The position numbers were made by a program, and so were the translations under genes. This document shows positions 19,945 to 30,860 of a stretch of 45,708 bases of DNA, piece after piece. The DNA is taken from contig PMAE01000055.1 of assembly GCA_003152485.1 (NCBI GenBank), positions 13,530 to 59,237 of the forward strand. Reading direction: 5' to 3'. Source of the DNA: Gemmatimonadota bacterium. GTDB taxonomy: Bacteria; Gemmatimonadota; Gemmatimonadetes; Gemmatimonadales; Gemmatimonadaceae. Numbering within the stretch: the first letter of the stretch is position 1; every line of letters begins with the position of its first letter. The notes under the pieces were generated by a model that saw only the letters and a list, made by a program, of their open reading frames with translations, ran no database searches and was not told where the DNA came from.

Positions 19945-22197
19945 ATGACAGCGACACTCACTCCGCCCCTCGGGGCGTCCCGGACCGAGACCTTTGCCGT
20001 CAGTGGCATGCATTGCGCCGCCTGCCAGTCGCGGGTCCAGGGCGCGCTACAGACGTTGCCCGGCGTCACGGACGCGACGGTCAATCTGATGACGCAGAGC
20101 GCGACGGTGACCTACGATCCCGGACGCCTCACCGCAGACGCACTCGTGGATCGGGTGCGCTCGACGGGATACGACGCCGCGGCCCCGACGGACGACGCGT
20201 CGGCGATCGAGGAGCAGGAGGCGCTCGACCGGGAGCGAGCGGCCGAGTTCCGGCAGTTATCGCGCGGGGCGGCGATCGCGATCACGGCAGGCGTGGTGGT
20301 CGCGGTCGCGCCGATTCCTCGAATCGCCCTGCTCGCCATCACTGCCGCGGTCATGGTATGGCCGGGACGTCATTTCTATGTTCGCGCGTGGTCCGCCGCC
20401 CGGCATCGCACGGCAGACATGAATACACTGATCGCGGTCGGGACGGGCGCGGCATTCCTCTTCTCCGTACTGGCGACTCTCGCGCCGGGCATGTTCGTCC
20501 GGCGCGGGGTGACTCCCGACGTCTACTACGAGGCGGTGGTCTTCATCATCGGCCTCGTCCTCGTCGGGAACGCGCTCGAATCACGGGCCACGCGTCGGAC
20601 GGCGGCGGCGCTCCGCGCGCTCATCGCGTTGCGCCCGGCGCGGGCCCGGGTAGAGCGCGATGGGGTAGAGGTCGAGATTCCGCTCGAAGCGGTCCGCGTC
20701 GGTGATGCGGTTGTCGTGCGTCCCGGAGAGCGGATTCCCGTGGACGGTGTGATCGTCCGGGGAACGAGCGCGGTGGATGAGTCGCTGGTCACGGGGGAGT
20801 CACTCCCGATCGACAAGGGTCCGGGCGACCACGTCATCGGCGGCGCGTTGAACAGTGCGGGGGCGTTCACCTATCGGGTGACCGCCGTGGGGCGGGATAC
20901 TACGCTGGCACGCATCGTTGCGCTCATGCGGTCCGCGCAGGGCACGCGGGCGCCGATCCAGCACGTGGCGGACCGCGTGAGCGCAGTCTTCGTCCCCTCC
21001 GTCATGGTGATCTCCGCCGTGACATTCGTGGTATGGCTCCTCGTGGCGCCTGGTGGGCCGAGCACGGCATGGGTCCGTGCGCTCGCGGCCGCGCTGTCGG
21101 TGCTCATCATCGCGTGTCCATGTGCCATGGGCCTCGCCGTACCAACTGCGATCATGGTCGCCAGCGGCAAGGGAGCGCAGCTCGGCATTTTGATCAAAGG
21201 CGGCGAGGCGCTCCAGCGCCTGCGGGCCGTGGACACGATCGTGCTCGACAAGACAGGCACCATTACCGCGGGCCAGCCGGCAGTCACCGACATCGTCGCG
21301 CGGGCGCCCGCCTCGGATCAGACGAACCGTGATCTCCTCCGGCTCGCGGGGTCGATCGAGCATTCCTCCGAACACCCGCTCGGCCGCGCTGTCGTGAACC
21401 GGGCGGTCGCGGACGGCGTAGCTCTCGGACGCGCGCGCGATTTTCGCGCAATCGCCGGCCAGGGCGCCACCGGGGTCGTTGACGGCGTGTCGGTCGCGGT
21501 CGGCAACGCGGCACTCATGGCGGATCTCGGTGTGGATGTCACGCCGATGGCAGCCGGCAGCGACCGCGTGTGGGCCGATGGCAAGACCGTCATGTATGTG
21601 TCGGCCGATACGCGGCTCGTCGGATTGCTAGCGCTGGCCGATCCGATCCGTCCGACCTCGCGAGATGCGGTCGCGCGGCTTTCCGCATTGGGCCTCGAGG
21701 TCGTCATGCTGACCGGCGATGCGCAGCGAGCAGCCGAGTCGATCGCGCGCCAGGCCGGCATCACGCGAGTGGTGGCCGGCGTGTTGCCGGCGGGCAAGGT
21801 CGCGGAGATCCAGCGACTCCAGCGCGGCGGACACGTGGTCGCGATGGTCGGCGACGGGATCAATGATGCGCCGGCGCTGTCGGCGGCTGATGTCGGCGTG
21901 GCAATCGGTACGGGCGCAGACGTCGCGATCGAGGCGGCGGACGTGACACTGTTGCGCGGCGACCTGCAGGGCGTTGCGCGAGCGGTGACGCTCGCCCGCC
22001 GCACGATGCGGATCATCAAGCAGAATTTGTTCTGGGCGTTCGCGTACAACGTGATCGGCATCCCGATCGCCGCCGGCGTGTTGTACCCGGTGTGGGGGGT
22101 GATGCTATCCCCCATCCTGGCCAGCGCGGCAATGGCGGTGAGCTCGGTCAGTGTCGTCAGCAACAGCTTACGGCTCGGCCGCGCCCCGATCGCATGA
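19945..22197 (+). CDS. copA: Copper-exporting P1B-type ATPase CopA
   Basis: The 750-residue protein has one N-terminal heavy-metal-binding domain (GMHCAAC, 21-27), then membrane helices and the actuator domain (VTGESLPIDKG). The copper-transport CPC motif is at 391-393, the phosphorylation motif DKTGT at 435-439, the HP locus at SSEHPLGRA and the hinge GDGIND at 636-641. These mark a Cu(I) efflux pump of the inner membrane. It starts the copA-csoR operon behind a CsoR operator. The stop overlaps the csoR ATG in an ATGA quartet. Confidence 0.97.
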   Translation: MTATLTPPLGASRTETFAVSGMHCAACQSRVQGALQTLPGVTDATVNLMTQSATVTYDPGRLTADALVDRVRSTGYDAAAPTDDASAIEEQEALDRERAAEFRQLSRGAAIAITAGVVVAVAPIPRIALLAITAAVMVWPGRHFYVRAWSAARHRTADMNTLIAVGTGAAFLFSVLATLAPGMFVRRGVTPDVYYEAVVFIIGLVLVGNALESRATRRTAAALRALIALRPARARVERDGVEVEIPLEAVRVGDAVVVRPGERIPVDGVIVRGTSAVDESLVTGESLPIDKGPGDHVIGGALNSAGAFTYRVTAVGRDTTLARIVALMRSAQGTRAPIQHVADRVSAVFVPSVMVISAVTFVVWLLVAPGGPSTAWVRALAAALSVLIIACPCAMGLAVPTAIMVASGKGAQLGILIKGGEALQRLRAVDTIVLDKTGTITAGQPAVTDIVARAPASDQTNRDLLRLAGSIEHSSEHPLGRAVVNRAVADGVALGRARDFRAIAGQGATGVVDGVSVAVGNAALMADLGVDVTPMAAGSDRVWADGKTVMYVSADTRLVGLLALADPIRPTSRDAVARLSALGLEVVMLTGDAQRAAESIARQAGITRVVAGVLPAGKVAEIQRLQRGGHVVAMVGDGINDAPALSAADVGVAIGTGADVAIEAADVTLLRGDLQGVARAVTLARRTMRIIKQNLFWAFAYNVIGIPIAAGVLYPVWGVMLSPILASAAMAVSSVSVVSNSLRLGRAPIA

Positions 22198-22565
22198 GCG
22201 CGCGTCGCAAGCGCCCCACGGGACGGGCAGCGGCATCGCCCGCCGCTCAGCCGGTGGTCACACCAAGCGGTGACGGACGCAAGTCAGTCGCGGTGGACTC
22301 GGCCGCCAAATCGCGCAATCTGCTCCGGCTCCGGCGCATCGAGGGCCAGGTCCGTGGCCTACACGGGATGGTGGACGCCGACCGATACTGCGCCGATGTG
22401 CTCACCCAGATCGCGTCGGTCCACGAGGCGCTTCGCGCCGTGGGACGTGAGCTCATGCGGCATCACCTCGAGCATTGCGCGACAGCGGCGATTCGGGCCG
22501 GCGGTCGGGACAGCGACGTGATGTATGATGAGCTGATGGAGCTGATGTACAAACACGTGCGGTAG
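22194..22565 (+). CDS. csoR: CsoR-family copper-sensing repressor
   Basis: The 123-residue protein has the DUF156/CsoR helical fold (LLRLRRIEGQVRGLHGMVDADRYCADVLTQI...). The Cu(I) ligand set is complete: Cys66, His91 and Cys95, with the same spacing (25 and 4) as the Cys-His-Cys site of known CsoR. An N-terminal tail of about 35 basic and Ala-rich residues is longer than usual. It is translationally coupled to copA (ATGA overlap). In the apo form it should bind the operator at 19913-19931, with release on copper binding. Confidence 0.94.
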   Translation: MSARRKRPTGRAAASPAAQPVVTPSGDGRKSVAVDSAAKSRNLLRLRRIEGQVRGLHGMVDADRYCADVLTQIASVHEALRAVGRELMRHHLEHCATAAIRAGGRDSDVMYDELMELMYKHVR

Positions 22566-22600: not shown

Positions 22601-22989
22601 GTAGGCAGCGATTGCCGAACGAGATACGCGCTGAGCGCGCTTCCGACGGTCGCGGCACTCCAGGCGAGGAGAGCGGGGAACAGGACTGTCGCGACGACCA
22701 GGACCGAGCCAGGAGCGCCTGCGATTTGGCCTAATGCAGTGATCAGGGCTGGGAGGGGCCCGCGGGCCGCAGTCCAGAGGAGGAGGCTCGTCCACGCGAG
22801 GGCGGCGGCAATCGATGCGCAGGTCGCCGCGCGAGTGCCGTGTGCATCCTGCTGCGTCGAGTGGGCGGCCCACATTCCCCACACGAATGCGGCGATCGCG
22901 ATCCCCCACCATCCGATCGCGGCCGTGGCGGCGATCAGGGCGACGGTGACCAGGATCAGTTGGCCGAGGTACGCCGCAATGCGTGTCAT
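22591..22989 (-). CDS. Small integral membrane protein, function unknown
   Basis: The 132-residue product is almost entirely hydrophobic, with about four membrane helices (LGQLILVTVALIAATAAIG, WWGIAIAAFVWGMWAAH, ASIAAALAWTSLLLWTAA, VLVVATVLFPALLAWSAA). I do not recognise a family. The ATG at 22989 overlaps the TGA of the penicillin acylase gene in an ATGA quartet, so the two are co-translated and the membrane protein may serve the acylase or its substrate. Its 3' end runs into a GT-rich repeat next to csoR, with convergent stop codons. Confidence 0.7.
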   Translation of the reverse strand: MTRIAAYLGQLILVTVALIAATAAIGWWGIAIAAFVWGMWAAHSTQQDAHGTRAATCASIAAALAWTSLLLWTAARGPLPALITALGQIAGAPGSVLVVATVLFPALLAWSAATVGSALSAYLVRQSLPTSH

Positions 22990-25577
22990 CGGGCTGGGTC
23001 CAGCGTCAGCGTCGCGCGAATATCTGAGGGCGCGAGCCCGCTCACGGCATGTGGCATCCGAACTGAGTCGAGCGTGCCGGCGAGCCACTGCGGGAGACGG
23101 TCCGCGTACCGCGTGCTGACCGGATTGCCTGACTGGCCTCCCGGGTATGTCGCCCAGGCGTGTACCTCCGGGCCGAGTTGCACGACCATCCGCCAGCTCG
23201 GTCCCTCAGTACCCCCGCCGCTCGATGGGCTCAAGGTCTCAATGCCACCCTGCACCGGCAATCCCAGGCGGGAGAACGGCCGCATGTAGAGGAGATGGTT
23301 GAAGTTCGCGTGCCGGATGCGGGCCCACTCCCACCCGCCGCCGTCCGGCGGTCCGTAACGCGCGGTCACCGAGTCGAGCGCGACGGTCAAACTAGCGGTG
23401 AGTCCGTCATCGCGTGTCTCGATCGCCGGAGTGCGTGGGTCATCCCACCATAGACTCTTCGGGTCGGCGAGCAGTTCCGCGAGCACGGCGTCCGATGGAG
23501 TGGCAACGCGGGGCCCATGCGGTTGTCGGGGTGGGATAAGGCGAATCCATGCGCGATTTCTAAGCGCGCGCATCGCGGCTTCGAATAACACGGCACGATC
23601 GTTTTCTCGCGTATACCGGCGATCCCACTCACCGAGCAACCGCGCGGCGTCCCGCCCGCGCGGTCCGGCGTGCCCGCCACTGTCGGCGCGCCGGAGGGCA
23701 TTGAGAAAATACGGAACGAAATAGTCGGCCCGTGCACTGCCGGGATCGGTCTGCCACCGGCGCATGTCGTCGGGGGTGACGAGCGAGTCGGCCCGCAGGA
23801 GTGCATTGATGTGGGCGGCGCGCCATGGCGATGGCCAATCGGCGCCTAGGTACACCCCGCGCGCGGCGCTAGGCGCATCGGGATCGACCGGCTCCTGATT
23901 ATTCGAGGCCAAATAACCCTGGGGCGGATCGATGGCCGCCGGATAGCGATCGAGCGACAGCGCACCCGTCCAATCGCTCGCCGACGTCGATCCGTCGCGA
24001 ACCACGTCGCCTCGCCCATCACCGGGACGCAGCGGATATCGTCCCGTCGATCGAATGGCGATGCTGCCGGAACGGTCAGCCACGAGCATGTTTTGCGCGG
24101 GCACATCGTATCCCGCGGTCGCGCGCAGCCATTCCGCCGTCGAGTGCGCGTGCGGCGCGGCGCGGAGTGCACCGAACGCGCCGCCGCCTTCCAACGCGGT
24201 CCAGCGCATCGACTGCCATCCGCCGCCCCCTGGTCGCAGGGGGCCGCGATGCGTGTAGAGCACCACCTCCCTCGCCAGGATCTCGCCGGCAGGCCCCCGA
24301 TAGGTCTCGAGGCGACGCTCGAGTGGGTGCCACACGCCGTCGAGCCGATACTGCGTCGGGTCCCGCCGATCGTCCACGGTCTCCGCGTAGTAGTCCATCA
24401 CGTCGGACCCGGTGTTGGTGAAGGTCCACGCGACGTCCCGAGTGAAACCGAGGATGACGCCGGGACCACCCGGGATCGTGACGCCCGCGACATCAAGCTG
24501 GCCCGGTACCACGAGATGGACCTCATACCAGAGCGACGGGAGCGTCATCTCGAGATGCGGATCACCGGCGAGCAAGGCATACCCCGCCTGTGTTCGCCGC
24601 GGCGACACCGCCCAGTTGTTGCTACCGAGCGTGGCCTCCACGCCCGCGCCAGGATGCGTCGCGCCATGAGTTGCGTCTGGTGCTGGGTCAGCTGTTGGGT
24701 CGGGTGGGGCGCCACCGGTCGCGCCGAACGCGCGGCTCGATCCATCGCGGAGCGCGGCGACGCCCATCGTCGATCCGTCGGCGTCTGGCGGTCCGGGAGG
24801 GGGCAGCCGATCAGTCCGGAGGCGGAGCACCGCGGACGCCGATGGGACGATCGGCTGCTGCAACGGCGAGTGGAGCGGGAGCAGTGCGCGCGCAGCTGAA
24901 TCCCCGACTACTCTGGCGACAACCTCTCGTGCGCTCTCCACGCGATCGTACGAGAGCGTGCGCGACATGCGATTGAGCAGATGGAGCGCGTCGATCGGCG
25001 CCCAGCGGCGCGGCCGGCGGCCGAGCAGTTGGTACTCGATCGGCAGATCTGCCGGGCCCATCTGGTCGATCCACGCGTTGACACCGTCGGCGTACGCACG
25101 CATCTCGATCGCGTCCGCTGACGTGGTGTCGAGCGCGGCGAGCATACGTTCCGCAGCCCGTGGCATGCCAAGTCTCCGCGTATCGCGATCCTCCGACAAC
25201 GCGGGCGCGCCGACCAATTCGGTCAACGTCCCGGCGCCGGCCCGGACCTGGACCTCGATCTGGAAGAGCCGATCCCGCGCGACGACATACCCCAGGGCGC
25301 GATAGGCGTCGGCCTCCGAGGTCGCGAAGATATGGGGGACGTTCCGGCCGTCGTATCGCACGTCGACACGCGCGCTGAGTCCCGGAATGTGTCCGGCCGC
25401 GGTACGCGGCAGTTCCGCGCTCCGCGCCACCGCCCAGATGCCATGGACCGGATCGAGCGCGGGGCCAAGCGGCGGTGCCGGTCCGAACCGGATCGACCCG
25501 ATCGCGATGCATGCACTCAGCACGAGGACCGCGATCACGACGCGCGCGATGTGAGAACGAGTGGACACGCGCACCAA
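22986..25577 (-). CDS. Penicillin acylase family N-terminal nucleophile hydrolase
   Basis: The 863-residue protein has an N-terminal membrane or signal helix (VVIAVLVLSACIAIGSIRF) and an alpha chain (RYDGRNVPHIFATSEADAYRALGYVVARDRLFQIE). The autocatalytic site is GSNNWAVSP, where Ser319 becomes the nucleophile at the N-terminus of the beta chain after removal of the linker. Beta-chain motifs GDPHLEMTLPSLWYEVHL and TNTGSDVMDYY are present. Such enzymes hydrolyse amide bonds in beta-lactams or acyl-homoserine lactones; the substrate cannot be assigned. The linker before Ser319 is a Pro/Asp/Ala-rich repeat. The start shown is a TTG; GTG codons at 25574 and 25568 are alternatives. Confidence 0.92.
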   Translation of the reverse strand: MVRVSTRSHIARVVIAVLVLSACIAIGSIRFGPAPPLGPALDPVHGIWAVARSAELPRTAAGHIPGLSARVDVRYDGRNVPHIFATSEADAYRALGYVVARDRLFQIEVQVRAGAGTLTELVGAPALSEDRDTRRLGMPRAAERMLAALDTTSADAIEMRAYADGVNAWIDQMGPADLPIEYQLLGRRPRRWAPIDALHLLNRMSRTLSYDRVESAREVVARVVGDSAARALLPLHSPLQQPIVPSASAVLRLRTDRLPPPGPPDADGSTMGVAALRDGSSRAFGATGGAPPDPTADPAPDATHGATHPGAGVEATLGSNNWAVSPRRTQAGYALLAGDPHLEMTLPSLWYEVHLVVPGQLDVAGVTIPGGPGVILGFTRDVAWTFTNTGSDVMDYYAETVDDRRDPTQYRLDGVWHPLERRLETYRGPAGEILAREVVLYTHRGPLRPGGGGWQSMRWTALEGGGAFGALRAAPHAHSTAEWLRATAGYDVPAQNMLVADRSGSIAIRSTGRYPLRPGDGRGDVVRDGSTSASDWTGALSLDRYPAAIDPPQGYLASNNQEPVDPDAPSAARGVYLGADWPSPWRAAHINALLRADSLVTPDDMRRWQTDPGSARADYFVPYFLNALRRADSGGHAGPRGRDAARLLGEWDRRYTRENDRAVLFEAAMRALRNRAWIRLIPPRQPHGPRVATPSDAVLAELLADPKSLWWDDPRTPAIETRDDGLTASLTVALDSVTARYGPPDGGGWEWARIRHANFNHLLYMRPFSRLGLPVQGGIETLSPSSGGGTEGPSWRMVVQLGPEVHAWATYPGGQSGNPVSTRYADRLPQWLAGTLDSVRMPHAVSGLAPSDIRATLTLDPAR

Positions 25578-25702: not shown

Positions 25703-28393
25703 CTACCGGCTCCCCGTCGAGTCAGCGACGTGTTTGAGTGAGTCTGCGCGGTGCCGACGTAACGACACGGCGCGGCGAACGGCCGCCATCTCGGCGGCTG
25801 CCTCTGGTGTGAGTGCGTCGCTGAACGCGGCGCTCGCCCGGAGTTCGGCCGCGGTCTTGGGCGGCTTGGGACGCGAGGCCGCGATCGCCGCTTCGGTGCG
25901 GGGGATCGGGGCTGCTCCCGGTGAGTAGACCGCGGCAGGATTGGCGCGCAACGGGTGCGTGACCAGCGCCGTGTCACCGGCGCGCGCCAATCCCGCGCGA
26001 GTGCCGGCATACGAGGCAGGGGTTGCGGCGGGTCCGATTGGCAGCCGTGGCGTTGCGGATGCGCCAGGCATCGCCACCGTGTCGGGCGGCAAGTTCGTGG
26101 CGGACGCCGCGAGCGAATCGATCGTCGACGCCGCAGCGGGGGCCGCTGTCGTCGGGGTCTCGGCGGTGGTCGTCGCGGGTGACGGAGCAGGATTCGTGTT
26201 CGATTCCCGCCGCGGCGCATTCGTTGGTGCACTCGCCGTCGTCACCACGCGGAATATCACGATGCTCGCCGCCGCGACGGCAATGACTCCGCAGGCCACC
26301 GCCATCGTGTACAGCCGCGTGCGTGTGCGATGGAGTCGCGGCCGGGTCGGCGGCTCACGCATCGCGGTGCTGTTTCGCGGCTCGACATTCAGCGCACTCG
26401 CCGCTGACGCACTCTCAGCGTTCGCGCGGAGTTGGTTGGCCTCGACCGACATCGCGACTGCCGCAACGACTGCGGGTTCAGACGGCAGGAGATCCAAATG
26501 CGGCGCAAGCGCTGCGGAGACGCGTGGTGACGCGACAGGCACTCCCTGCCCTGGGAGAGGCGGAGCGAATGGCGAGCGAGACGGCTGCGGCAGCGCCACC
26601 GGGGCGTCCGCGACTTCGGCTGACCCATCCGCGGCTGCGTCGGCCCGCAATTCCGCAGGCGATTCCGGATGCGATTCGGGATGCGATTCCGCGGATGCCT
26701 CCGCGAGCGACGCCGCACGGCGCGCCGCACGTCTATCCGCGCGCCCTTTCGCACGCCGATCCCGGCGCGGCGCCTCAGCACTCGCTCCCGCCGCTGAGGT
26801 GGGCGCAACCGACGGCGACGAATCACTTTGGACCGGTACAACCGACGCGTCGGGCACGGGCGATACGGGTGTTGCGAAGGCAGCTGTCGCAGCCGATGCA
26901 ATTGACGCAACCGGCGCCAATGACGCCGACGATTCTTCCGATGCCGCTGGTGGCGCCACAACTGGCGCGGCGACCGATCCGGGAGTCACCTCGGCGGGAG
27001 CCACCGCGGCAGGGATCACCGCGATGGGAGCGGCCGATGCGGGAGCCACCGATGCGGAGGCAACCGGTACCGCGGCAACGGACGCGGGCGCAATCGGCTC
27101 GGCCGGTGGTGGCGCGGACGCCGCGGGAGTCGCCGACTTCGGTGGTGTCCACCGCGCCGATGCCAGTGCCGCCATATGGGCCGGCATGGGCGGCACTGGC
27201 GGGAGCATCGACATGGGCACGGCCATCGGCGGTGGCGTGGCCGACCGCTGGCGCGGACTGGTTCGCGGGTCGGCCGAGGGTGCGGTCCGAGGCTCTGGCG
27301 GGCGAGGCCGATCAAAGGGCGGACGCTGGCGATTGACGCCCGGTGCTGTAACGCCGGGAGCTGTCACGGTCGATGAAGCGGCGGGTGTTCGACTCGCACC
27401 GCTCAACGGGTCACCAACGGGACGGACGGCCGGCCGGCTCGGACGCGAGACGCGGGGGGGCGGCGAGAGTCGTACGGCCGGCGCCTTGGCCTTTGGGTCG
27501 TGCAGCGCAGCCAGCTCGGCGAGCGGAAGGGCCAACGTCGGCTCGCCCTCGGCGGCGGACCCGGCCCACGGTTCGAGTGGGATGCCGAGTTCGAGCGGGA
27601 CGTCGTGGTCGAGCACCTCGTGGACCGCACGCGGCGGTTCCATCGCGGCGACCGCGTCGCGAGCGTCGGTCCACGGCTCGCCGACGACGGCGCCGCTGCA
27701 CGCGCAGCCCAGCCGGGGCGCGAGATCGATGACCCGGCGCTCTTTCTCCGAGATGCGGAACGCCACCTCGGCGAGGAAGTCGCGCGCCGAGGGCTCGATC
27801 AGCATGTATCCGCGTTTCTCGGCGTACAGCCAATTGGGTGCGGGTGCGCCGCCCGGCAATGAATAGAACCGCCGGGCATCGCGAGTCAGCCGCTCGTCAA
27901 CATCAGATGATTGGTCCGCCGGCACGATGCCGCGCTTGGTGAGGCTGCGCAGCAGCGCGTTCGGCGTGGCGTGGCGATCGATCGCGGGGTCCGATGCACC
28001 CGGGCATTCGCCGACATACGTGATGTGGACGCCGGTCGCACCAGCCCGCGCGCGGAGATACCGCGCCGCGAGCACCGGAGGCGATGCCATCGGGAGCAGA
28101 TGCGGCACGAGGTTCCCCACTCGCCGCAACCGCTCGGCGACGCGGGGACAGGAACAGAGTACGACCGAGTCTTGGCCGCGGGCGGCGATCTCGTTGAGGC
28201 ACCCCGCGGCGACGAGCTCATCACCCCAACTCGCCGGGATGACCGCGCTATACCCCGCCGCGTAGCAGGCATTCGTGAGCTGCGCGGGTGTCGCAGGGCG
28301 CACCGCTAGCAGCGCGTCGGCGCCGAGGATGATGATCGCGGGTGTTGCGGGCGCGGAACGCGCGGAGAGCGCGGCCGCCGGAGCTGGTGACAT
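25703..28393 (-). CDS. Membrane protein with an [FeFe]-hydrogenase-like N-terminal domain
   Basis: The 896-residue protein has three parts. Residues about 15-260 resemble the large-subunit C-terminal (H-cluster) domain of [FeFe] hydrogenases, with counterparts of L1 (LCSCPRV, Cys80/Cys82), the PHLLPMASPPVLAARYL helix, L2 (YVGECPG, Cys130) and L3 (LGCACSGAVVG, Cys230/Cys232). No ferredoxin domain precedes it. Residues about 290-690 are Ala/Pro/Ser-rich low complexity, then one membrane helix (about 695-719), then an Ala/Pro-rich tail ending in a charged helix. The catalytic loops deviate from the TSCCP and MPCxxK consensus, so catalysis is doubtful and a redox- or gas-sensing role is possible (inference). 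It lies 123 bases downstream of the sigma/anti-sigma/thioredoxin operon on the same strand. The 125 bases between it and the acylase gene show only GC-rich imperfect dyads. Confidence 0.7.
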   Translation of the reverse strand: MSPAPAAALSARSAPATPAIIILGADALLAVRPATPAQLTNACYAAGYSAVIPASWGDELVAAGCLNEIAARGQDSVVLCSCPRVAERLRRVGNLVPHLLPMASPPVLAARYLRARAGATGVHITYVGECPGASDPAIDRHATPNALLRSLTKRGIVPADQSSDVDERLTRDARRFYSLPGGAPAPNWLYAEKRGYMLIEPSARDFLAEVAFRISEKERRVIDLAPRLGCACSGAVVGEPWTDARDAVAAMEPPRAVHEVLDHDVPLELGIPLEPWAGSAAEGEPTLALPLAELAALHDPKAKAPAVRLSPPPRVSRPSRPAVRPVGDPLSGASRTPAASSTVTAPGVTAPGVNRQRPPFDRPRPPEPRTAPSADPRTSPRQRSATPPPMAVPMSMLPPVPPMPAHMAALASARWTPPKSATPAASAPPPAEPIAPASVAAVPVASASVAPASAAPIAVIPAAVAPAEVTPGSVAAPVVAPPAASEESSASLAPVASIASAATAAFATPVSPVPDASVVPVQSDSSPSVAPTSAAGASAEAPRRDRRAKGRADRRAARRAASLAEASAESHPESHPESPAELRADAAADGSAEVADAPVALPQPSRSPFAPPLPGQGVPVASPRVSAALAPHLDLLPSEPAVVAAVAMSVEANQLRANAESASAASALNVEPRNSTAMREPPTRPRLHRTRTRLYTMAVACGVIAVAAASIVIFRVVTTASAPTNAPRRESNTNPAPSPATTTAETPTTAAPAAASTIDSLAASATNLPPDTVAMPGASATPRLPIGPAATPASYAGTRAGLARAGDTALVTHPLRANPAAVYSPGAAPIPRTEAAIAASRPKPPKTAAELRASAAFSDALTPEAAAEMAAVRRAVSLRRHRADSLKHVADSTGSR

Positions 28394-28516: not shown

Positions 28517-29176
28517 TCACCCCACGGTCCGGGACGGAGCCGCCGGGGCATCGGGCGCCGAGTCTCCCGCGTCGCGGAACCCGACGGCGTCACGACCCGA
28601 ACCGGTCAGCGCATGCTCGATGCGCGTGAGGACCTCATCGACCGTCGTCGCACCATGATCGCGCGCGTACCACCGCCGCACCTCGCGATACCGGTCCTCC
28701 TTGGTCAGCGTGCGCCCTTCGCCCACGACCCAGGCCTGCAGCGCGGCAGGGCGCGGGCCCCACCACGCACACTCGCGGTAGGTCGGGTCGAGAATCATGA
28801 CCACCGGGATCGATCGCGAGCCGTTGGTCAAATGCGCGTCCATGAGGTCGAGGTTGGCGTCGCGCCCGAGCACCCGCAGGTCGATGTTCGGGGCATGTTC
28901 CGTGAGACGACCGAGGACAGGCAAGGTGTTCACGGCGTCGCCGCACCAGTCTTCGACCAAGACGAGCAGATGCCAGGGGCCGCCAAGCGTCTCGGCGCGG
29001 GCGAGGGCCGCATCCTCTATGCGGGCGCGCGAGTACACGGCGCGCCAGAGATCCGCATTCGCGACCGCCGCGGCCAGGAATTCAGTGAGGGAACGTCCGG
29101 CGGCGAACCGCTCCTGGAGGGAGCCGACTGACTCCCCGCCGACGATCGGCGGCGCCACGACGGGCGTCGTCGTCAT
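28517..29176 (-). CDS. Thioredoxin-family protein
   Basis: The 219-residue cytoplasmic protein has a thioredoxin-like core (WHLLVLVEDWCGDAVNTLPVLGRLTE, then SIPVVMILDPTYRE with the conserved cis-Pro region). The active site is WCGDA, with a single Cys and Ala at the usual second-Cys position. It is therefore probably a monothiol member of the thioredoxin-like family (PF14595 type) rather than a classical disulfide reductase. The start is the ATG at 29176, 11 bases after the anti-sigma stop, so it belongs to the sigma operon. The C-terminal tail (from SGRDAVGF) is low complexity. Confidence 0.82.
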   Translation of the reverse strand: MTTTPVVAPPIVGGESVGSLQERFAAGRSLTEFLAAAVANADLWRAVYSRARIEDAALARAETLGGPWHLLVLVEDWCGDAVNTLPVLGRLTEHAPNIDLRVLGRDANLDLMDAHLTNGSRSIPVVMILDPTYRECAWWGPRPAALQAWVVGEGRTLTKEDRYREVRRWYARDHGATTVDEVLTRIEHALTGSGRDAVGFRDAGDSAPDAPAAPSRTVG

Positions 29177-29187
29177 TGCACCACGCG

Positions 29188-30084
29188 CTACTTGCCTGGG
29201 CGATTGGCGGTGGCGGCGATGATGAGCGCGCCGGTGGGCTGCGGGACGCCGCCGGCCGGCTCTTCGGTCACCGCGATGGCGCGGAGGGAATCCGCGGCGA
29301 GTGGGTATGTGGCCTGGACCTCGGCACCGCCGTCCGGCTGCGGGTTGAACGTCCCCGCGCTGATCTTCGCGTGGGGGGTGACGAGCCACAACTGATACGT
29401 CTTGCCGGCCGCCGGTGCCGGCAGATCGCGCGCGACGAGCGTCCATCGGTTGGCCGCGTGATCCCAGAACATCCACGCCCACGGCGCCCGCACGGCGCTC
29501 GATGTGAGTTGCATCGTGGAGACTTGCTTGCCGGTGACCGCGCGCACGAACGCGTCGCGGGCCTCCACCGAGTCGCGCAATGCCTGGACGCGTGCCAGCA
29601 GAGTCGTGCGCTCGGCGGTGAACTGCTCGCCGTCGAGCGTCGCACGATGTTGCACGGCGATCACGCCAATGATTCCCGCCGCGATCGCGAGGCCCCAGCC
29701 GAGGACCGGCGATGCCGCCCACGAGCGACGCGTCTGCCCCGCCCCGCCGGCGATCGCGCGAGGGGGTGGCCACGGGCTGCCCGACGCGGGCGGCCCGTCG
29801 GACGCGGCCGCCGGTTGGGAGCCATCGGCGACCGACAGATCGGCTCGGGCTCGGGCCAGGAGGCGGGTGCGGACGCGCGCGCGGCTCACCGCATCGACGG
29901 TGACCGGTGGGGCCGCGAATGCCAGTTGGGCAAGGGCGTCGCGGAGCGCGATGAGCGTCGGCCCGCACTCGGGACATCCCGTGGCGTGGGCTACGACCCC
30001 GGCCTGGTCATCGGGCGACAATGCGTCGAGCGCCGCCTCCGGCAGCAGTTCAGCCGCCTCCGAATGACTCACGTCCCGGCTCAC
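29188..30084 (-). CDS. Anti-sigma factor, RskA type with zinc-binding N-terminus
   Basis: The 298-residue protein has a ZAS-like N-terminus with His33, Cys37 and Cys40 (HATGCPEC), a Pro/Ala linker, one membrane helix (VLGWGLAIAAGIIGVIAV, about 128-146), a short coiled segment and a periplasmic RskA domain (WTLVARDLPAPAAGKTYQLWLV ... GALIIAATANRPG). It should hold the ECF sigma factor at the membrane until an envelope or redox signal leads to proteolysis or zinc loss. Its GTG overlaps the sigma stop in a GTGA quartet. The HxxxCxxC motif and the downstream thioredoxin suggest possible redox control (inference). Confidence 0.9.
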   Translation of the reverse strand: MSRDVSHSEAAELLPEAALDALSPDDQAGVVAHATGCPECGPTLIALRDALAQLAFAAPPVTVDAVSRARVRTRLLARARADLSVADGSQPAAASDGPPASGSPWPPPRAIAGGAGQTRRSWAASPVLGWGLAIAAGIIGVIAVQHRATLDGEQFTAERTTLLARVQALRDSVEARDAFVRAVTGKQVSTMQLTSSAVRAPWAWMFWDHAANRWTLVARDLPAPAAGKTYQLWLVTPHAKISAGTFNPQPDGGAEVQATYPLAADSLRAIAVTEEPAGGVPQPTGALIIAATANRPGK

Positions 30085-30722
30085 GAGCGTCCCTCCCCCT
30101 CGTTTCGATAGGTGGCGAGGCAGTCGCGCAGCTTCTGGGCAGCGAGCCGGGTGCGCGTCTTCACCGTGCCAAGCGGTTGGCCCGTGCGGTCGGCGATCTC
30201 GGCCTGACTCAAGCCGGCGAAGTACGCGAGCTCGAGGACCTCTCGTTGTTCGCGCGGCAGCGTCTGCAGCGCCTGGGCGACAATCGTCCGGCGTTCGGAG
30301 GCTTCGGCTCGAACGGAAGGATCGTCCGCGGCGGACGTCGCACCCCCGGCGCCGGAGTCATCGAGCGAGACGGGCGTGAGTGGCTCTTCGCGCAGTCGCC
30401 GCCGTGACCGCAACCGGTCGAGGGCTCGGGTCCGCGCGATGGTGAGCAGCCAGGTGCCGACCTCTCCGCGCGATCCATCGTAGCGAGAGGCTTGGCGCCA
30501 CACCTGCCAGAACGCCTCCTCCACGACATCCTCGGCGTCGTCCCCATCTCTGACCAGGCGGAGCACAAGCGAGAACACGGGCCGCGACCAGCGGTCGTAG
30601 AGTTGTGCCAGGGCTGCGTCGTCTCCAGCACTCATCCGCGCCACCAGTTCACGGTCGTCGCTCCCGGACGGCGAAGAGACCGTCCTGGGAGAGTACGAAT
30701 GAGTGGGGGCCGGCGGATTCAT
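30081..30722 (-). CDS. ECF-type RNA polymerase sigma factor
   Basis: The 213-residue protein has sigma region 2 (LAQLYDRWSRPVFSLVLRLVRDGDDAEDVVEEAFWQVWRQ) and region 4 (LQTLPREQREVLELAYFAGLSQAEIADRTGQPLGTVKTRTRLAAQKLRD). These identify an ECF sigma factor of the SigK/RskA-partnered kind. The ATG at 30722 starts a plausible N-terminus; the open frame runs further upstream, but a promoter at 30733-30760 lies there. It is co-transcribed with its anti-sigma and a thioredoxin. Confidence 0.95.
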   Translation of the reverse strand: MNPPAPTHSYSPRTVSSPSGSDDRELVARMSAGDDAALAQLYDRWSRPVFSLVLRLVRDGDDAEDVVEEAFWQVWRQASRYDGSRGEVGTWLLTIARTRALDRLRSRRRLREEPLTPVSLDDSGAGGATSAADDPSVRAEASERRTIVAQALQTLPREQREVLELAYFAGLSQAEIADRTGQPLGTVKTRTRLAAQKLRDCLATYRNEGEGRS

Positions 30723-30732
30723 TCTCTGCGAA

Positions 30733-30760
30733 TGTATAGTCTGCAGCAAAGGCCGTGCAA
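30733..30760 (-). promoter_or_regulatory. Promoter of the ECF sigma operon
   Basis: On the minus strand TTGCAC (30760-30755) and TATACA (30738-30733) are separated by 16 bases, and the ATG lies 10 bases after the -10. These are housekeeping-type boxes, so basal expression probably does not depend on the ECF factor itself. The 5' leader would be only about 3 bases. Confidence 0.55.
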
Positions 30761-30830
30761 ATTGCGGGCGACGGCGAACGGGTAAGGTCTGGGCGACGTG
30801 GCGCAGGGATTCCAGCCGCGGCCCATTTGG

Positions 30831-30860
30831 TTGTCTCACGGTCGCCACAGTACCTAGCTT
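30831..30860 (+). promoter_or_regulatory. Promoter of the zinc-ribbon gene, probably leaderless
   Basis: TTGTCT (30831-30836) and TAGCTT (30855-30860) are 18 bases apart. The ATG begins 6 bases after the -10, the spacing seen for leaderless genes with a TANNNT box. No Shine-Dalgarno sequence is visible. Confidence 0.5.

Follow-up and report, generated by a model that had tools for sequence, protein, structure and literature searches.

The closest described relatives of the protein reported here are the sensory [FeFe] hydrogenases, for which a role in H2 sensing has been proposed but has little physiological proof. The enzymes of groups C and D carry a C-terminal Cx2Cx4Cx16C motif (PMC8163306). 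Among [FeFe] hydrogenases, the HydDB classification distinguishes kinase-linked (C1), chemotaxis-linked (C2) and phosphatase-linked (C3) types; a cyclase-linked form is found there only among the [NiFe] enzymes (2c), and as of 2016 the database held no cyclase-linked [FeFe] type (PMC5037454). A further relative is Nar1, a [FeFe]-hydrogenase-like protein with two four-cysteine sites that is tied to Fe-S trafficking and O2 sensitivity (PMC12621388). With Nar1 there is a known case of an H-domain that does not act as a hydrogenase. Our literature search, the coverage of which was incomplete, returned no described H-domain protein from Gemmatimonadota or joined to a GGDEF domain. It also yielded no protein with the layout described below, in line with what an earlier note on this DNA had stated.

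The window (the whole stretch of 45,708 nucleotides that was analysed) comes from a soil bacterium. As judged from its sequence, the gene studied here is a membrane-tethered remnant of a hydrogen sensor, from which the hydrogen-handling parts and the signalling domains have been lost.

The N-terminal domain and its surroundings

The reading frame (Table 1) starts with an ATG at 28393 and stops at 25703, and its start methionine is shared by the three species of the window's genus in the homologue alignment. The PF02906 search that the earlier note had proposed was positive for the homologues, of which 38 of the 46 aligned were matched (best E 1.2e-8), far beyond chance, but not for the window protein alone: its residues 10-270 matched with an E-value of 0.0028, which is under the Pfam cut-off and would be weak if taken alone. 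The match to TIGR04105 had an E-value of 0.021, and a PF02906 search of the window's own genome at E 0.001 returned nothing, so that homologue profiles were required. A match of the full protein to Cation_ATPase_C (E 0.22) was put down to chance.

An AlphaFold2 model made from the homologue alignment had a pLDDT of 94.3 and a pTM of 0.92. When the PDB was searched with this fold, 38 matches were obtained at E ≤ 0.001, all of them [FeFe] hydrogenases with a probability of 1.00; the TM-score was about 0.55-0.65 depending on query length, and the next PDB match came only at E 0.057. A profile including the sister proteins described below matched 43 PDB sequences, all named [FeFe] hydrogenases (best E 3e-18), with which it aligned loops L1, L2 and L3 in register. 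It is therefore near certain that the N-terminal domain is a true homologue of the H-domain of [FeFe] hydrogenases. The earlier note had assigned it to this family from its sequence, and the assignment is borne out by the homologues, by the PDB profile matches and by the fold, which is that of an [FeFe] hydrogenase and not an unrelated one.

Table 1 Features of the H-domain gene and of its neighbours, in window coordinates
Feature	Position	Strand	Evidence
Whole gene (896 aa); membrane-tethered protein derived from an H-domain	25703..28393	minus	ORF and translation
[FeFe]-hydrogenase-like H-domain, residues 10-270	27584..28366	minus	PF02906 profiles, AlphaFold model, fold search
L1-like loop LCSCP; Cys82, which never varies, matches the Cys of TSCCP that ligates the [4Fe-4S] cluster; Cys80 does vary	28145..28159	minus	Homologue alignment
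L2-like loop GECPG; Cys130 invariant, MPCxxK lysine missing	27998..28012	minus	Homologue alignment
L3-like loop LGCACSG; Cys230 at the position of the H-cluster bridging Cys	27692..27712	minus	Profile alignment to PDB
Ala/Pro/Ser-rich linker, residues 271-690, predicted cytoplasmic	26324..27583	minus	Composition
Single transmembrane helix, residues ~699-718, basic residues N-terminal of helix	26240..26299	minus	TM prediction
Ala/Pro/Thr-rich outside tail, residues 719-896, charged possible helix at end (AAEMAAVRRAVSLRRHRADSLKH)	25706..26239	minus	Sequence
Penicillin-amidase family protein, next gene downstream	22986..25577	minus	Pfam
Thioredoxin-like protein (PF14595), 123 bases upstream of the H-domain gene	28517..29176	minus	Pfam
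Anti-sigma factor (RskA_C, zf-HC2)	29188..30084	minus	Pfam
ECF sigma factor	30081..30848	minus	Pfam

Prediction also recovered the layout that had been claimed for the remainder of the protein: a stretch of about 400 residues rich in Ala, Pro and Ser, one membrane helix and an outside tail. The linker contains 24% Ala, 19% Pro and 12% Ser and no Cys. The transmembrane helix is preceded by the basic segment PRLHRTRTR, which predicts an N-in/C-out orientation with a cytoplasmic H-domain. The membrane anchor is not universal in the family. A transmembrane segment was present in at least 28 of 50 homologues, often at the extreme C-terminus; a paralogue in the window's own genome (second H-domain copy, L040, G000:C8:77368-78207) has no membrane helix, and a copy from the same genus (in G044) stops about 75 residues past the H-domain. 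The paralogue adjoins a gene that, by its sequence, looks Smr-like. The linkers are otherwise variable and disordered, but 26 of the 50 homologues, long members from other genera (L004-L030), share a motif PR(A/T)Yx(A)RR (LPR(A/T)YxARR), the conservation of which suggests a putative binding site. The motif is absent from the window's own genus, window protein included. A charged C-terminal helix is common to some long members and is found in a weak form in the window protein.

The gene had been described as lying just after an ECF sigma, anti-sigma and thioredoxin operon. These three genes are indeed present, on the same strand. The genus, and only the genus, shares the gene order sigma, anti-sigma, thioredoxin, H-domain gene, penicillin amidase. 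The gaps flanking the H-domain gene measure 123 and 125 bases, and promoter and terminator scans of them gave nothing recognisable; the neighbourhood may be an operon. Comparison of the family loci revealed no neighbour conserved over all of them. At 19 of 40 loci, a Crp-like gene is placed divergently beside the H-domain gene. In 148 genomes, both genes occurred in 26, the H-domain gene alone in 16, the Crp-like gene alone in 34 and neither in 72, these being raw counts that ignore kinship. We did not adopt a functional link between the two, as the Crp-like gene is absent from the window's genome and co-occurrence is loose (26/42). This regulator (L041-L048, L112-L139) has no conserved Cys and occurs in 34 genomes that do not have the H-domain family. 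Elsewhere in the window (19945-22565), the sequence reads as a copper-type P-ATPase followed by a short CsoR-type-like regulator.

The cysteine site and the missing hydrogenase parts

Five cysteines (Cys80, 82, 130, 230 and 232) sit where the earlier note had placed them. Their conservation, the failure of which the note had named as a refutation, held for Cys82, Cys130, Cys230 and Cys232, each present in all 49 homologues, but not for Cys80, kept in only 44 of 50. In register with the hydrogenases, Cys82 corresponds to the ligand Cys of TSCCP, Cys130 to the Cys of MPC and Cys230 to the bridging Cys of L3, whereas the proton-transfer cysteine of TSCCP is matched by Ser81, not by Cys80. Hydrogenases and sister proteins have a further cubane ligand 3-4 residues ahead of the bridging Cys; here it is missing, and Cys232, two residues past the bridging position, takes its place. 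Three of the four invariant cysteines thus align, in the sister-inclusive profile, with cubane ligands of the H-cluster. A few members (L018, L019 and L029) have an extra Cys 3-4 residues before the bridging position, which may be a relic.

The deviation of the loops from the TSCCP and MPCxxK consensus, also pointed out earlier, was confirmed. L1 (LCSCP) retains the ligand Cys, the adjacent first Cys being replaced by Ser81; L2 (GECPGA) retains the Cys without the Lys; and L3 (PRLGCACSG) retains the Cys at the bridging position, the other ligand being at +2. All 49 homologues have the four conserved cysteines at cluster-ligand places, as in a single four-Cys Fe-S protein, and these residues likely bind one Fe-S cluster.

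As the earlier note had suggested, the window's genome was searched for the maturases HydE, HydF and HydG, and none was found over the cut-off. HydG was not over the cut-off in 22 genomes holding the Gemmatimonadaceae family of the window protein (f1), nor was any of the three in any of the genomes searched that hold f1 or the related families f2, f7 and f9. As a control, HydE and HydF were over the cut-off in both genomes of a more distant group (f11), in which HydG was present too; in one of the two genomes it is divided between contigs. The window's genome is 92% complete, and related genomes that are near 100% complete agree on the missing maturases. Weak matches to HydG, HydE and HydF in f1 genomes were sub-threshold and resemble radical-SAM or GTPase proteins of a generic kind.

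Other hydrogenase parts are missing from the protein itself. It has no ferredoxin match in Pfam and its H-domain begins at residue 10, in keeping with the claimed loss of the N-terminal ferredoxin domains. The two N-terminal [4Fe-4S] motifs of the sensory groups C and D are absent, as is the C-terminal Cx2Cx4Cx16C motif, there being no Cys in residues 271-690 and 719-896. Nor does the full protein contain a Pfam output domain (PAS, kinase, cyclase or phosphatase). We conclude that the window protein is no longer a hydrogenase; the missing maturases and the altered loops support the notion, raised before, of a repurposed Fe-S protein.

Sister proteins and descent

The window protein is not a singleton: homologues, about 50 of which were sampled, occur in 42 of the 148 Gemmatimonadaceae genomes, several of which hold two copies, and their identities range from 36 to 95%. 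No relative was found in the plasmid records searched. A search of the phylum with the family alignment was positive for 115 of 395 genomes, and the matches outside the family mostly had E-values of 1e-28 to 1e-45. The closest (E ~1e-40) are sister proteins of about 590 residues, comprising two ferredoxin motifs, an H-domain, a PF04060 FeS motif (Cx2Cx4Cx16C) and a GGDEF domain, the site of which is intact in most of them. The more distant f11 proteins combine ferredoxin, H-domain and FeS motifs with HisKA/HATPase, i.e. with a histidine kinase as output, and their loops are near standard (L1 TTCP or TSCP, L2 PCIAKK, L3 CCNGC). In one f11 genome (G148), a complete set comprising a hydrogenase, a kinase-linked sensor, HydE, HydG and HydF is found on a single contig (C176:6109-14711, part in L102). 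The PF02906 matches on this contig include a second one that is stronger (318 bits).

A supported branch of the tree has the f1 family on one side; the cyclase-linked proteins form another side and f11 a third. With f11 as outgroup, f1 would be sister to the cyclase-linked proteins, a rooting that is tentative because f11 is on a long branch. We read the window protein as a repurposed descendant of sensory (group C/D-like) [FeFe] hydrogenases.

The cyclase-linked proteins also bear on the role of the cysteines. All four canonical residues were found in 27 of 73 such proteins, one in 11, none in 35, and two or three in no case; this all-or-nearly-none pattern is as expected for the ligands of one cluster. 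Cluster cysteines were absent from all 16 proteins of f7 and f9 and from 19 of the 57 of f2, where another 11 had one, and their loss probably occurred at least twice, in f7/f9 and within f2. Sister proteins devoid of these residues indicate that the H-domain fold can persist without a cluster. The four-Cys site was lost in no sampled member of the window's family. Many of the proteins at L092-L101, L104-L111 and L142-L199 have lost all cluster cysteines of the H-domain and mostly keep the ferredoxin and FeS motifs.

Proposed function and comparison with known systems

We propose, with a probability of roughly 60%, that the protein is a repurposed H-domain with one [4Fe-4S] cluster, membrane-tethered and redox- or gas-responsive, which signals by protein contact. 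Cys82, Cys130, Cys230 and Cys232 would hold the cluster at the cubane position of the H-cluster, and the domain would stay in the cytoplasm, tied to the inner membrane via a single helix and the disordered linker. If the cluster changed its redox state or was attacked by O2, NO or peroxide, this would alter the domain, which would then pass the signal to a partner; contact between proteins is proposed because no cyclase or kinase output remains. The earlier suggestion of a redox or gas sensor is strengthened by the diguanylate cyclase or histidine kinase outputs of the nearest relatives, and the protein is probably a redox- or gas-responsive regulator. Much more tentatively, a membrane-tethered single-cluster sensor may have arisen stepwise from an H-domain by a ligand swap, the empty [2Fe] cavity now binding another ligand or a gas.

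We considered the possibility that the protein carries or helps to assemble Fe-S clusters, as a bacterial equivalent of eukaryotic Nar1. The logic of an H-domain without maturases would be the same, yet no Fe-S assembly genes were seen beside the loci, the protein lacks the ferredoxin site that Nar1 has at its N-terminus, occurrence in only 42 of 148 family genomes is unlike that of a housekeeping factor, and the nearest relatives are signalling proteins. This explanation is therefore improbable. Rather unlikely, too, is a cluster-free protein-binding scaffold in which the cysteines are kept for zinc or disulfides. The invariance of the four residues in the window's family (49/49), the position of three of them at cluster-ligand sites of hydrogenases and the predicted cytoplasmic location of the H-domain all argue against it, even though sister families that keep the fold with no cluster cysteines suggest that it can work clusterless. 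That the protein is a working H2 sensor or hydrogenase carrying the complete H-cluster, as the fold, the bridging-Cys position and the descent from putative H2 sensors might suggest, is very hard to reconcile with a genome without HydE, HydF or HydG over the cut-off and a protein without ferredoxin, MPCxxK lysine, first TSCCP cysteine or normal L3.

A single phylum spans a series from a kinase-linked sensor with maturases, through cyclase-linked proteins without maturases and with or without cubane ligands, to a bare tethered domain. With this series it can be asked which element of the H-domain does the signalling, and whether the fold can sense without H2 chemistry. PF02906-type matches in soil genomes are not, alone, proof of hydrogen metabolism.

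Like the group C/D sensory [FeFe] hydrogenases (TmHydS, TamHydS), the window protein has the H-domain fold and lacks the first Cys of TSCCP. Unlike them, it has no N-terminal ferredoxin, PAS or kinase, no MPCxxK lysine and no maturases; one L3 ligand has moved and a membrane anchor has been added. Their Cx2Cx4Cx16C cluster motif is present in the sister proteins of the phylum but not in the window protein. The cyclase-linked sister proteins resemble the window's family in the absence of maturases and the loss of the L2 lysine, and differ from it by two ferredoxin clusters, an FeS domain, a GGDEF domain and an L3 that reads PCEGC or has lost its Cys. Nar1/IOP1 is likewise an Fe-S H-domain protein without a hydrogenase role, but it keeps an N-terminal ferredoxin-like site, which the window protein lacks, and acts in cytosolic Fe-S assembly; to our knowledge, it has no linker and membrane anchor of this sort. 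The H-domain superfamily itself is already known.
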